Positions 8,581-60,700 of a DNA stretch of 64,000 bases are shown here, piece by piece. The stretch covers positions 1 to 64,000 of the forward strand of contig SVNP01000002.1 of the NCBI GenBank assembly GCA_015066805.1. Reading direction: 5' to 3'. Numbering within the stretch: position 1 is the first letter of the stretch; each line of letters starts with the position of its first letter. Source of the DNA: Ruminococcus sp. GTDB lineage: Bacteria; Bacillota; Clostridia; Oscillospirales; Ruminococcaceae. The position numbers and the translations under genes are program-made. The notes below the pieces were generated by a model. The model was not told the origin of the DNA. It ran no database searches and saw only the letters and a program-made list of their open reading frames with translations.

Positions 8581-9411
8581 TTAGGGGATAATGGAACCGT
8601 TACTGTCCAAACGCCATTCGCCGGTTGCGGTATCCCGTACAATGGTGTAGCGGGTGGAGTAGGTCTCGGTGTGGGCGACATCAATATACCAGTCTCTTAC
8701 GGCTACAAAGGAGTCCTCTGTCACATTCAGGATGTGAATGGGCGCATCGTCTTTATAGTCATAAATGCATGGCTGTACTCTTTCGTATATGTGAACATAG
8801 AGCTTTCCGTTGTACATGATGAAGCCTTTTGCCGTTTCGTTTTCGATGGTATCGCCCACGGCAATGTCCGTAAAATCGGCTGTCAGATCACCGGCCAGCA
8901 ATTGATCGAAATGCTGCCGGGAGAGAACGGACTTTGCGTAGTTCTCAATATCCTCAATGCTGTTGAATCGCTTGTCGGTATTTCTGCAATAGACACCGTA
9001 GTGATCATAGGCATCCTCATATTCGGGGATCCGGAAGGAGATCATGTCGCTTTCGTCGTATGTCGTACCGTAGGTGTAGATGTTCAGAATGTCCTCAAAA
9101 CGGTAGGTGAGATCCAGACCGATGCTCTCGTATTGGCTGTAATCATCGCCGGTATAGGGGATATCCGACGTGGTGGTTGTGGTTGTTTCCGTTGTAGTTG
9201 CTTCCGTTGTAGTTGTGGTGGTTGCCCGGGTTGTGGTTGTGGTTTCCGCCGTTGTGCTTGTGGTGGTCGTGCTTTCCGCAGAACTGCCGGAATCCGTATT
9301 CTCATCGGAACAGGCAGTCAGAAGGGCGGAGCCGGCAAGCAGCAGGGCCACAGATACAGTCAGTGCCTTTTTGTTGCGTACGGCTTGCGAGAGATGATGC
9401 TTGGTTTTCAT
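8581..9411 (-). CDS. threonine-rich lipoprotein, unknown function
   Basis: The 276-aa protein has a lipoprotein signal peptide ending in the lipobox LTAC at about residues 31-34. A linker of about 50 residues is made almost only of Thr, Ser, Ala and Glu (TTTTT runs), and a folded domain of about 190 residues follows. The linker is typical of cell-surface proteins in ruminococci and may be glycosylated or span the wall. The C-terminal domain is rich in Tyr and Asp, and I do not recognise the family. ATG 9411 follows GAGAAAGAACT, and a perfect promoter lies 100 bases upstream. Confidence 0.75.
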   Translation of the reverse strand: MKTKHHLSQAVRNKKALTVSVALLLAGSALLTACSDENTDSGSSAESTTTTSTTAETTTTTRATTTTTTEATTTETTTTTTSDIPYTGDDYSQYESIGLDLTYRFEDILNIYTYGTTYDESDMISFRIPEYEDAYDHYGVYCRNTDKRFNSIEDIENYAKSVLSRQHFDQLLAGDLTADFTDIAVGDTIENETAKGFIMYNGKLYVHIYERVQPCIYDYKDDAPIHILNVTEDSFVAVRDWYIDVAHTETYSTRYTIVRDTATGEWRLDSNGSIIP

Positions 9412-9539: not shown

Positions 9540-9693
9540 TACAAAATCGCATGCAGACGAGATTTTTTCGGGATTTCGTGCATATGAGGCGCTGCGGCGG
9601 GATGTTATGCAATATTGGGACACATCCGGCATAAGGTATATGGAAAAATACCCGCCGTGCTTTGTGCACTTGCATGACAGAAGGGAGCAGAGA

Positions 9694-10827
9694 ATGATGA
9701 AACAATGGGGCAGATCTTTGGTGTGGGCGATCGTCTGGACTTTGCTGTGGAGGTGCCTTCCCATACAGACCTTTGCAGAACCCTCCGAAGATACATACTG
9801 TACCGTGCTGATGGAAGCGGAAACCGGTGTGGTTTTAGATGGCACAGGCTATGATACGCTCTGTGCGGCGGGCACGCTGACCAAGCTTATGACCGTATAT
9901 CTTGCGGCGCAGGCTGTGGAAGAGGAGCTTCTGACGGCAGATACGCTTGTTGCCGCCCCTGCTGCCGCACAGGAGCAGAAAGGTGCGGTCATCTGGCTGG
10001 AGACAGGTGATAAAATGTCTGTGGCAGATCTGCTGAAGGGCGTGATCATCGGCAACGCCAACGATGCTGCCGTAACACTGGCTTGTGGGATCTCCGGCAC
10101 AGAGGAACAGTTTGTAATGGAGATGAACCGTGCCGCCTTTGAGCTGGGAATGCACCATACCCGTTTTGCGGATGCTACAGGGCTTGCTCCTGAAAATGTT
10201 TCCACTCCGCAGGATATGGCTTTGCTTTGCCGTGCGCTGCTGCCATACGAATGGCTGACCCCTATGTTTACCGCATGGCGGGATTTTCTGCGGGAGGGTA
10301 CCACAGAGCTTGTCTCGGAGAATATCCTTACCAAAAATTACGAAGGGCTGCTGGGCTTCAAGGCCGGTCACGGTGATGCCTGCGGCTATACGCTGGCGGC
10401 TGCGGCTCAGCGGGAGGACTTTTGCTGCATTGCGGTGGTTATGGGCTGCCAAGATGAAAACGAAAGGTTTTCCGTAGGAAAAAGGCTGCTTGCCAAGGGC
10501 TTTGAGGGCTTTACCGTCACGACTCCGGATTTTTCCACCGAGTTTATGAAGCCCGTGACTGTCCGCCACGGTATGGATGCCGCCGTTCTGACAGAACCCG
10601 CTGCGCTGTTCAGTGCGGCAGTGCCCAAGGGAGAGAGCATCGGCTGTGTGGTCGTTTTGCCTAATTATGCAGAGGCTCCCGTGCGTCGGGGGGATGCCTT
10701 GGGGTGGGTGGCGTTTTATTGCGAAGATACGTTGCTTTACGAAACACCCCTCTGTGCTGCCGCCGATGTGGAGCGCAGAGCCTTTTGGGATACCTTTGCC
10801 CTCCTTTTGGGAAATATGTTCAAATAA
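9694..10827 (+). CDS. DD-carboxypeptidase-like protein with altered catalytic motifs
   Basis: The 377-aa protein starts at ATG 9694 after AAGGGAGCAGAGA (track start 9454 is upstream of the signal peptide). A signal peptide (WAIVWTLLWRCLPIQTFA) precedes an S11-type penicillin-binding fold. The three family motifs are recognisable, but each is changed at the Ser or Thr position: SxxK reads T61-L-T-K64, SxN reads N121-A-N123 and KTG reads K223-A-G225. A beta-rich C-terminal domain follows, as in PBP5/DacF proteins, with a C-terminal segment that could be amphipathic. Canonical members remove the terminal D-Ala from peptidoglycan stem peptides. Activity here is doubtful, and a scaffold or lineage-specific variant is possible. 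Confidence 0.8.
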   Translation: MMKQWGRSLVWAIVWTLLWRCLPIQTFAEPSEDTYCTVLMEAETGVVLDGTGYDTLCAAGTLTKLMTVYLAAQAVEEELLTADTLVAAPAAAQEQKGAVIWLETGDKMSVADLLKGVIIGNANDAAVTLACGISGTEEQFVMEMNRAAFELGMHHTRFADATGLAPENVSTPQDMALLCRALLPYEWLTPMFTAWRDFLREGTTELVSENILTKNYEGLLGFKAGHGDACGYTLAAAAQREDFCCIAVVMGCQDENERFSVGKRLLAKGFEGFTVTTPDFSTEFMKPVTVRHGMDAAVLTEPAALFSAAVPKGESIGCVVVLPNYAEAPVRRGDALGWVAFYCEDTLLYETPLCAAADVERRAFWDTFALLLGNMFK

Positions 10828-54741: not shown

Positions 54742-57700
54742 ATGAAATCTGCAACGATCCGTAAAATGGAAAATCATGCCAGACAGGTTGTTCGCAACGT
54801 GGCAATTTGTTTTGCTGTGCTCATGGGCATAGTGGCGTTGTATTATTGCCTGCTGCCTGCTTTGGCGGAAAACGCCAGCGAGACGGATGTGTATGTCTTC
54901 TTTGATAACGGTCTTTCAAAGTATGAGGGAAAAACAACGGATGGCGTAAAAACCGTTGTGGTAGGCTCCGTTTACAGCAGCGAGAGCGACTATTCCGCAG
55001 ACGCCACTCTGGAAATGAAGCTTCTGGCAGACGTGATCAGCGAAAACGGCGCACACTGGAATGCAGTGAAGGCACAACTGGGTGATGCAGTCAAGGGCGA
55101 CGGTACCATTACCAACATAAATCCAGCCAATGTATATGTATCTACTGCAACGGTGCGTGTAGGCAATTATATTACCTTCTCTGCATGGGATTCCGGCACG
55201 GTGTATGATACGATGGCCAATTATCGTGTCAACGCAGCTTCTCGTGAGTGGGGCTATGATTATGTTGATTTCCAGTGGGTTTCTCCCAAAACCGCAATGA
55301 CCTACGGCAACAATTGCTATTATGCTCCGCCCCAACTGATGATCAACCGCTATGCTGCAGAGGCTGCTATTTACAGCGGCGGCCCCAAGGCACTGCGCCA
55401 GATGATCTATCAGCACGGTGATACTTATAATACCACTGAGTATTATGATGCCAACGGAGACGGTACCATCGACACCAACGCAGGCGATATCAACATTCAG
55501 TTGAACGCTTCTTCCAAGCCGGAAGTCAATGGCGCATGGGCCAACCCGCAGAACGCCTACGGCAGAACCTTCTACGATGCTGTTCTGGATATGAAAGGCA
55601 AGTTTGGTGCTCCTACCGATGTAAATGATCTTGCGGCCAACAGCCAGAGCGCAAACGGCGTGACCCGGGAAGGCTCCGTAGCACTGAACGGCAACGGCGA
55701 CAACGGTCTGAGAGATGCCAATACCATTTATCATGCAACAGCTACTTTCTTTGATTACTTCTCCGACTGGGAGCTGGCAGGTAATCCTCTGGCAGAGCAT
55801 ATTACCTCCTATACCCATGACAGTGAGGACGGCAAGGCCAAAGAAGAGCTCTTTGCGCTGAATCAGACTGTAAGCGACGGCATGGTTGTTCTGACCGAGA
55901 ACTTTGACAACGCCGAAGATATGCTGGTGTTTACCAATGTCAGCGACAAGGCAAACTCTAATGTTAATGTAAGAGATAACGCCAATGACACGCATACGGC
56001 TGACGGTTCTCACTTTCTGCAGATTTACGCAAGAGGCATTGCAGAGTACAAGCTGCCTGCGGATGCCACAGGCGATGTGTTCAGTTCTTCTGTTTGGGTA
56101 AGACAGGCACACAATAAGACTGATACCTTGACAGTCAGTCTGTATTATGAATTGAACGGTACAGCGCATACGATCACACTGAATGAGTTCGCCTACACCG
56201 GCTGGAGCAATTGGACGTTGCTGGAAACCGGTCTGTTCTCCGTTCCGGATGGCGCGACCAACGCAGCATTGCGTTACAGCTCCGTTAACACCTACCGTCT
56301 GGATGATTTCACCTTGAAGTATGAAAGCAGCGGACGGAATGTGACCACTACTACTTATAACTGGGAACAGAAAACTCTGATCGATTTTGAAGATAGCACT
56401 AAGGCAAATCCTTCGGATTATGGCTTTAGCCTGATCAACACCGGTTGGGAACCCAATGTCAATGATATCCCTGAAGGCTACGGTGCATACCTGACCCTTT
56501 CCAATACGCTGGAAGATGCGTGGGAGCTGACTCCGGACAGCAATAAGCTGCTGAATGTATGGCACAATCCTCTGGTGTACAATACGGGCGTGCTGAGTGC
56601 GGGCAAATACCGTCTTACCGTAGATGTACAGGAAGTTTGTGTGTGGAATACGGACAATAACGGTCTGGATGAGTGGGGACTTGGCAGCGTTTACATCTAT
56701 ATTACCACAGATGGCGGTGCAACACTGGTTCCCATTGCCAGTCAAACCGGCATCAGCGGCAAGAGCGACGGAATCGGAACAGCAACACTGACAGGTGAGT
56801 TCACGCTGGATGCCGATGCAGACGCATTGCTTTGCTTCCAGACATTCCCCGGTCCTTATATCGAGTGGAATACCAGCATGGGAACCGACTCCTGCTACTA
56901 TGATAATATCAAGCTGGAGTACGAGCAGGCAACCACAGTCACAAATTGGGTTAACGGCGAAGAAGTTACCCTGACCGTGGATGCAAAGGAAAACAACAAT
57001 GCTCAGGACGATTACGCTAAGCAGCTTGGTATTACCCTGAGCAGCAAGAGCGATGTGGAAAACCGCAAGGGTATGGAGCTGTTCCTGAACATTGCCGATA
57101 CGAAGGATTCCAATGATGACGGTATTACCAAAAACGGCAATGTGGTTCCTCAGGGCTCCGGCGCATATTCCAACAAGGAAAACTACCTGATCGAAGGCAA
57201 CGCCTTTGCAACGGGTGCGGTGAAACTGGTGGCAAAGCACTATCATCAGTATTTTGATGGTTCCGTGACTGCTGCTAACCGCAAAATGGAATTTGTCAGC
57301 GAAGAGGTGCTGGCAGAGTATGCCGCAGGCAGCATTTTCATCAGTGAATATTTTGCGCCGCCCATCGGAGCAAATGCAACACGGCTTTCTTTGGTTGCCG
57401 TTGAAAGCGGCACTGAGATCCTCATCAGCCATATTGATGTTTCCAAGGCTCTGCTGAATACCAACGGTACTTTCTCCGAGGGTACCAACCGTATTGCTTA
57501 TTCCTATCAGGGCCTGAGCTTTAATGATGCCATCAGCCGCTATTATGTGGCCGCAGGTGCAGATGCCAACAGCGTAGTTCCTCTGTATTTCGGTTCCAAT
57601 AGCTGGATGACCGGTAATCTGCGTTACTATTTGGGTGACCGCAAAAATCAGCCGCTCTTTACTGCGGATGAGGTGCAAAAAGCACTGGAGTACATCGGCG

Positions 57701-60700
57701 TGGAATCTCTCCTGACCCGTGATGATTACATCAACACGCAGTACGGCGATACACCGATCAAATCCGATAACGGTAAGGATACCTATGTGGGTGCATATCT
57801 CATCCCCCTGAGCCGTGAGTATTGGATCAACCTGTTCGGTTATGGTCTGACCTACCCCGGCGATACCTCCGGTGTTGTGGCAAACGGCAATTCGCTGATC
57901 TACAACCGCAACCCCAACTGGGAAACCGACAATGAGCCTTTGGGTGGTTCTAACAGCCGCGGCGTTGAGAATCTTGTGATTTACAACCCCGATCTGGATA
58001 TCATCACCCTGGCCAATACCGCTCAGACGCTGGAAGCTCCCTACTTCAATACGGACTTCCTGCGGGGCGAAAACCCCGACAATGCCGTGTACGGCGATGT
58101 GTATGAGAATGTAGATTTCGCATTTGCATACAATGAAGATTCCGAGTATTACGAGTTCGATAGTACCAAGGCATGGTATGCCGTGCGTCTGACCCAGAAC
58201 GGTACCACCGGCAAGTATTACATGGATTACTACAATTACAGCCAGCTGGTTGACCATTATGACGGTTCCACTACCGGCAACGTGGTTTCCTATGCAGCCG
58301 ACAGCACTATCCGTTACCCCGGCGTAACCAAGGCTGACGGAAGCTGGGGCGATTCCAACGGTTCCAGCCAGACGCTGTATCAGTTCCTGCCCTTTAACTC
58401 TCCCGCAACCAACGACCGCTTTGCTACCGAGAACCTGATGTTCGGTATGAAGTTGGATATTCCTTTCAACATGGCAAAGACCCTGACCTATAACGGCGAT
58501 CAGCTTGCAACTACCACTACCAGTAACAGTATGTTCAAGTTCTCCGGCGACGATGACGTTTGGGTTTATGTTGACGGTCAGAAGGTTCTGGATATCGGCG
58601 GTACCCATACCGCAGTTGGCGGCTTTATTGATCTGAAGAACGGTTACGGTGTTCTGGGTTCTACTTACGCCGATTACACCGGTGTCTGGGAGAATTCTTC
58701 CGACTTGAGCACTCTCGCTCCCGCACTGACCAGCGGCAAGGATCAGGCCATCGTGTCTTTGGAAAAGGCTGCCTTTGCTGCACTGGCATCGCTGGAAGAG
58801 CTGGAGCTCGTCCGTGATGATGTCAATTCGCTGGGCGTCGGTCAGGCAACTGCCTGGATCGGCAATACCGAGCAGGTTCATGAGGAAGTAGATTTCTTTG
58901 ATGATGCTTACACCTTTGCAACCGCAGGCGGCAGTGTGGGATATTTCCAGTATCGTGCCCGTCTGGTGAAGGCAGGGGAGTATGTCATCGATATCAACAT
59001 CCCCAACAAGATCAACGGTTCTATGAACGGCGGTACCGTTACCTTTGATCTCTCCGTGTTTACCATGACAGAGAACGATGATAATACCACCTCCACCACC
59101 ATTATTGATGGCAACGAAAAGTTTGAGTACCAGATTATTGACCATGAGCTGACCATTTACTACATGGAGCGTGGTCTGAACAGCTCTAACTTCAAACTGG
59201 CATTTAACTTTGTTCCCAATGCAGACCGTGAAGTGGAAAAATCCTGGGGTGATGGTGCAGATGCACATACCGACGACGCTATTCTGGTTGCCCTTTACGG
59301 CGCAGACCCCGGTGAGGCAAGCGGTAAGTTCAATCTGTTGGATACCGATTACTCTCTGCTTCGTCTGATCGGACATACCGCACTGGAGAACAGCAGCAAT
59401 GATCTCATGTCTTCCGGCTTTATCGGCGATCAGGATAAGGTTTCCGTTCGCTTCCAGCTCGACGATGCAAACATCAACTCTGCTGCTGCATTGTCCATCA
59501 ATGGTATGCCCATTACCGAGGAAGTCTACAAGCAGCTCCATAACTCCGCCATGGGTCTGACCATCTACGTCGATAACAACGAAGTGCTCATCGACGAGGA
59601 TGACAACTATGTAGGGTTTGAGTTCTTTGATCCCAAGGATGCTGCCGATAAGCACAGCTACAACGCTGCCGGTTTTGAAACGCAGTATTGCACCAATGAC
59701 TGGGGCACAGGTAAGAACGTGACCGATGCCCAGAAGCATTCCGCCATTAAGCTGCATGATACCGCAACCGACAGCGGCACCGTGATCAAGATCGAGTTTA
59801 ACCAGGTAGATGTTACCAACAATATGCCTGAACCCGAAAATGGTGTGAACGGCTGGGGCTTCTTCAACACCAGCGCATGGCTGATTGAAGCGTTTGGCTG
59901 GGATGTGGATAATAACACCGCAGTTCCCGTTCTTTCCCGTGGTATTACCACTGCTTCGGAAAGCACTGTACACGCAACCGACCGGAAATCCGGCAATGCC
60001 CGTACCTTGAATGCTTCCGATATGCTGATCTACATCACCAATGTACTGCGCGAGCGCAATAACTCCGCAATTGCTGAGGAGAACGGAACGACGACTCTGT
60101 ACATTCAGGCTCCCAACGTAACTGCAAACGCTGTGGTTCCCGGTGATGAGATGACCCTGAACTACAATGAATCCAAATCCAGAAAGCCTTTGCTGGGCGT
60201 GGGCCGGTGGACAAATATTTTCAAGTTTGATGCTGAGAATTACACCATTGATGCAACCTACAACGGCAAGGCAGATCATTCTTTCCCCCATGTGCTGAAG
60301 ACCTTTACGGCAGCAGGCGATGCCCGTGCCACCATGATCGTTCTGGGCGGCGGCGAAAGCCTGAATCAGGCGTTGAATCTGGAAGATGTGGTTTATGATA
60401 CCACCTTTGCCGTAACAGACTTCGGATACTCTGAGCCTAAGCTTTATGGCGACGGCAATTTTGACTGGGATGGCGACGGTCAGCCTGATGTGGGCGTGTA
60501 CCTGCTGGATGAAGCATCCGATTGGTTGGCTTTGTGGGAGGGCCTGCCCTCTGCAAAGAATATCAACAATGCGGATTACAAATATCAGTATTTCATCCGT
60601 GAGCTTGCTATTCTGGAAAAGAACGACCAAGGCAAGTATGTAACCAAAACCGATGCCAACTACCGCACCACCTACTATGCAGATTATGTGGCAGAAGGCA

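Follow-up and report, generated by a model that had tools for sequence, protein, structure and literature searches.

A conserved S11 D,D-carboxypeptidase homologue with altered catalytic motifs in Ruminococcus and its relatives is probably a pseudoenzyme

The stretch of Ruminococcus sp. DNA analysed here, 64,000 nucleotides in length and referred to below as the window, carries a gene for a D,D-carboxypeptidase-like protein in which all three catalytic motifs of the S11 family are changed. The question raised by this locus is whether such a protein is still a hydrolase or is kept for another task. In S11 enzymes, the serine of the SxxK motif attacks the carbonyl of the penultimate D-Ala, the SxN serine moves protons together with the lysines, and the KTG motif holds the substrate.

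The open reading frame occupies positions 9694-10827 of the forward strand and encodes 377 amino acids, as delimited by translation, Pfam matches and orthologues. It opens with a double ATG, the start being either 9694 or 9697, and its stop codon ends at 10827. A purine-rich stretch resembling a ribosome-binding site (aagggag, 9681-9687, forward strand) was noted by inspection 5' of the double ATG, and a GGAG-like sequence lies at the matching place in many orthologues. Residues 1-28 (9694-9777) form a probable signal peptide, with cleavage expected after QTFA; the initial annotation had described it as intact, and inspection of the hydrophobic N-terminus, a property found also among the orthologues of the genus, agreed with this. 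The Peptidase_S11 domain (PF00768; residues 30-252, 9781-10449) was recognized by Pfam with an E-value of 3.3e-43 and 148.3 bits against a cut-off of 27.6, and by AlphaFold and Foldseek as well. The matched part of a PBP5_C-like C-terminal domain (E 2.3e-4) covers residues 316-361 (10639-10776). Among 25 orthologues of the genus, all match the PF00768 profile and 24 match PBP5_C. The protein ends in a helix in the AlphaFold model (residues 364-376, 10783-10821), which by analogy with PBP5 and DacF is probably an amphipathic membrane anchor.

Alignment with solved PBP5/PBP6-type proteins placed all three catalytic sites exactly on the altered motifs that had initially been reported. Motif 1 (SxxK) reads TLTK at residues 61-64 (9874-9885), motif 2 (SxN) reads NAN at residues 121-123 (10054-10062), and motif 3 (KTG) reads KAG at residues 223-225 (10360-10368). 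The catalytic serine is thus absent (Thr61) while the SxxK lysine is present (Lys64), the SxN serine is replaced by Asn121, and KTG is lost with its lysine kept. A motif scan of the protein revealed no second intact set of SxxK, SxN and KTG; chance matches away from the aligned sites were SVGK at 260 and SEN at 208, with none for KTG.

The AlphaFold model, computed with 70 homologues in the input, reached a mean pLDDT of 95.7 and a pTM of 0.89, and the helix bearing the SxxK motif begins at the expected place. E. coli PBP6 and PBP5 were the best PDB matches in Foldseek, aligning over the full length with TM scores of 0.78-0.83. In the model, the PBP5/6 fold, the groove and the C-terminal domain are all retained, as had been supposed from the sequence, and identity to the two E. 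coli proteins is 24-30%.

A full-length or near-full-length orthologue was found in 25 of 30 genus genomes, with 49-67% identity in the search. Of the five remaining genomes, one (G028) has a C-terminal piece of the gene, situated at the end of a contig, and another (G022, 96% complete) seems truly to be without the gene. Motif 3 is KAG in 25/25 orthologues and motif 2 is NAN in 24/25 (NAS in one). Since these residues recur in independent assemblies, sequencing error at the codons was excluded. Position 61 is occupied by Ser in 12 orthologues and by Thr in 13, and the SxxK lysine is kept in all. The triple change first seen as three coordinated changes in one protein is, judged from these orthologues, two fixed changes and a further site at which Ser and Thr alternate in the genus. 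Nor does the window protein stand alone: the changes in motifs 2 and 3 mark out a family-wide clade, and motif 1 drifts.

The survey of homologues proposed at the outset was carried out across the genus, family and order, and it was evident that the alteration of motifs 2 and 3 is clade-wide. Profile searches gave a match in 246 of 299 same-family genomes, spread over 110 of 126 genera, and in 357 of 394 genomes of the order. In nearly all of them the match was single, and both counts mix altered and active types. By the motifs of the fetched loci, the matches separated into an active type (n = 34) and an altered type of 103 non-redundant proteins, the latter consisting of a main clade of 96 and a small sister clade of seven. 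A collection scan had used the patterns GNAND and KAGHG, which biases its hits for motifs 2 and 3 and leaves motif 1 unbiased; the profile searches, free of that bias, yielded the same split.

The active type has a Ser nucleophile in 34/34 proteins, SAN in 34/34 and KTG in 33/34. In the main altered clade, position 61 is T in 36, Y in 32, S in 20 and A in three proteins, with M, C, W, V and H once each, so that the hydroxyl-bearing residues T, S and Y together account for 88 of 96. All seven sister-clade proteins (L145, L150, L157, L158, L161, L182 and L192) carry His at this position, within motifs such as AHHSAK, GNANDA and KA/KS. The surroundings are far more constant. Lys64 and Asn121 are present in 103/103 altered proteins, and Lys223 is likewise invariant; within the main clade, Asp124 is 100% conserved, Asn123 of the SxN motif is kept in 98%, Ala224 is found in 94/96 and His226 in 79/96, and position 60, an Ala in the active type, is Gly in 96/96. 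Named members of the altered type include R. flavefaciens MA2007, YL228, Y1 and ATCC 19208, with GYLTK or GYLSK, GNANDA, and KAC or KAS. Outside the altered clade, too, motifs can be changed in part: an active-side relative (L162) combines ASLNK and SAN with KYG.

Two trees were built without the motif columns, one of 144 rows and a thinned one of 60 rows, both quick and computed without bootstrap. In the larger tree, the altered proteins formed one or two clades, motif 2 required two changes, and the nucleophile position at least 24, with Ser and Thr interchanging repeatedly at position 61 within the genus. In the smaller tree, they formed one clade with an SH-aLRT support of 97, nested among active-type proteins. 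A single origin of the Asn/Ala type is favoured over two by these trees. Among 24 close pairs of the altered clade, dN/dS ranged from 0.05 to 0.14, with a median of 0.085.

The gene order at the locus is the S11 gene, pgi (glucose-6-phosphate isomerase, PF00342; 10995-12329, forward strand), a gene for a 139-aa protein without a Pfam match, YceD, a DUF512 radical-SAM/PDZ protein and der. Of 80 altered-type loci, 75 included pgi, in most cases on the same strand, and a matching order surrounds the majority of active-type orthologues and each of the four His-type loci examined. With one match of the type in nearly every genome and the pgi neighbourhood common to both types, confusion with paralogues was ruled out. 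The single copy and the shared pgi/YceD/DUF512/der neighbourhood point to a loss of catalysis in place and not in an extra copy freed by duplication, a loss that probably happened once. A gene at 8581-9411 (reverse strand), divergent from the S11 gene and upstream of it, encodes a predicted lipoprotein that contains a low-complexity linker rich in Thr and matches no Pfam family.

Loss of a catalytic residue, purifying selection and a kept fold were thus all found in this group. Because the nucleophile position is Y, H, A, C, M, V or W across the clade, a Ser or Thr nucleophile is not required; and with Asn121 and Ala224 fixed while that position is free to become Tyr, His, Ala or Trp, selection cannot be maintaining acyl-enzyme chemistry in the clade. 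We consider it likely that the product of this gene is an S11 pseudoenzyme, conserved, exported and attached to the membrane, which is kept for a non-hydrolytic task and whose orthologue at the corresponding locus next to pgi in other Oscillospirales is an active S11 D,D-carboxypeptidase of PBP5/DacF type. The pseudoenzyme was one of three options named initially, and the variation at the nucleophile position supports it; the two others, a beta-lactam-insensitive enzyme and an enzyme with a new substrate, found no support for the clade. Together with a Thr-dependent enzyme, they are less likely than the pseudoenzyme.

The strongest competitor is a still active hydrolase that would use Thr (or Ser) as nucleophile and would have been retuned by the Asn/Ala pair to another substrate, such as a different stem-peptide end or an ester. 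The strong conservation of the pocket residues is consistent with this, as is the fact that position 61 is Ser or Thr in 25/25 genus orthologues, together with Lys64 and Lys223, and some residual activity is possible in members with Ser or Thr, which include the window protein, given that in the genus only these two residues occur and Lys64 is invariant. However, Y, H, A, C, W, M or V occupies position 61 in close relatives with otherwise the same signature, and the repeated Ser/Thr interchange within the genus also speaks against such an enzyme. A class A beta-lactamase is inactivated by a Ser-to-Thr change at its nucleophile, which counts against this reading as well. In E. coli PBP7, replacement by Ala of S67, S124 (the SxN serine) or K231 abolishes Bocillin binding (PMC11586513). 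An active hydrolase of this kind is, on balance, rather unlikely, and as a general reading a Thr-specific enzyme was rejected, Tyr, His, Ala, Cys, Met, Val and Trp all being found at the site in the same clade. Less probable still, and by a wide measure improbable, is a D,D-carboxypeptidase that stays active while insensitive to beta-lactams and keeps wall trimming going under antibiotics. It would explain altered penicillin-binding motifs in a kept fold, but the same residues perform peptide acylation, the nucleophile itself is gone in many members, and ordinary, presumably sensitive S11 paralogues are kept in the genome. A relaxed, decaying gene or a sequencing artefact, for which one could cite the incompleteness of the window assembly, can be dismissed, as the same residues occur in independent assemblies and in records of cultured R. 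flavefaciens, and open frames, the low dN/dS and conserved synteny, along with clade-wide fixation and an intact predicted fold, bear out the view that the variant is selected and not decayed.

For the pseudoenzyme, the following course can be proposed. In an ancestor within the family, Asn would have replaced the SxN serine and Ala the KTG threonine. Constraint on the nucleophile position would have been lost, and the protein retained for a non-hydrolytic task. Acyl-enzyme chemistry would be absent, from which an absence of D,D-carboxypeptidase activity and of covalent penicillin binding would follow. Held at the membrane by its C-terminal helix, the protein would bind peptidoglycan stem peptides or serve other wall enzymes as scaffold or regulator. 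For this it would draw on the C-terminal domain with its anchor and on the groove, which is retained (Lys64, Asn121, Asn123, Asp124, Lys223 and mostly His226). Such a peptidoglycan-binding or scaffolding role is the simplest reading and is probable. D,D-carboxypeptidase activity would be supplied by VanY-type peptidases and by the two S11 paralogues in which SxxK and KTG are intact. A bolder version, which we put forward tentatively and rate as rather doubtful, is that a whole lineage has gone from trimming pentapeptide stems to sensing them: the single-copy D,D-carboxypeptidase would have become an obligate non-catalytic protein of the wall, a receptor or a regulator, whose groove has been redesigned (G-x-x-x-K, G-N-A-N-D-A, K-A-x-H), a second S11 paralogue losing catalysis independently.

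Compared with the S11 D,D-carboxypeptidases PBP5, PBP6 and DacF, the window protein shares the fold, the two domains (Peptidase_S11 and PBP5_C), the signal peptide and the C-terminal helix, as well as the Lys of SxxK, the Asn of SxN and the Lys of KTG. In contrast to these enzymes, the altered clade has an unconserved catalytic Ser position, Asn for the SxN Ser and Ala for the KTG Thr. The pgi-linked active-type proteins of other Oscillospirales (among them L146, L168 and L180) are orthologous to the window protein by tree, single copy and neighbourhood, but differ from it in their intact S-x-x-K, S-A-N and K-T-G. E. coli PBP7, an S11 endopeptidase, offers a partial parallel: its inactive variants still reach midcell, localisation being independent of activity, whereas PBP7 itself is catalytically competent (PMC11586513). 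The degenerate LytM factors EnvC, NlpD and ActS are described as hydrolase folds without catalysis that control other hydrolases (PMC8416486, PMC8360153); the parallel is functional, and the folds are unrelated. Searches of the open-access literature turned up no account of S11 pseudoenzymes of this kind, and what appears to be new is that a standard S11 enzyme was converted in place, across a clade and with its synteny preserved.

A family match alone would name these proteins D-alanyl-D-alanine carboxypeptidases. Judged from the sequence data, that name is wrong for an entire branch of Ruminococcus-type bacteria that are abundant in the rumen and gut. The branch provides a natural series of Ser, Thr, Tyr, His and Ala forms with a fixed Asn/Ala signature, alongside active orthologues at the same locus. 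With this series, one can ask what S11 proteins do besides stem-peptide trimming, a question for which usually only E. coli point mutants serve, and the answer would bear on wall maturation and the beta-lactam response of these bacteria.

The window genome (assembly 79.6% complete) encodes three further S11 proteins. Two of them keep SxxK and KTG, with the motifs MASTTK, SGND and KTG (L001) and PASMTK, SGAD and KTG (L003). The third (L004:1396-2784, on G000:C16, outside the window) has a C-terminal membrane segment and reads ATLAQ, SSCEA and KTG. Its SxxK lysine is replaced in every genus orthologue covering the site, by Gln and once by His; several other genera have Q, N or D there, and others keep ASLTK. 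By its motifs, this paralogue is a second, putatively independent S11 pseudoenzyme, and S11 catalysis appears to have been lost more than once in the family. Strict coupling of the two losses was not seen, the L004-type paralogue being altered in some active-type genomes too. Four VanY-family matches in the same genome (G000:C4, C19, C35 and C21) are possible alternative D,D-carboxypeptidases. Two minor observations concern a class-B-type transpeptidase (L288, G000:C7), with the motifs SIFK and SCN and with KTS in place of the expected KTG, and a very long open reading frame of 1904 aa at 54916-60630 of the window (reverse strand).
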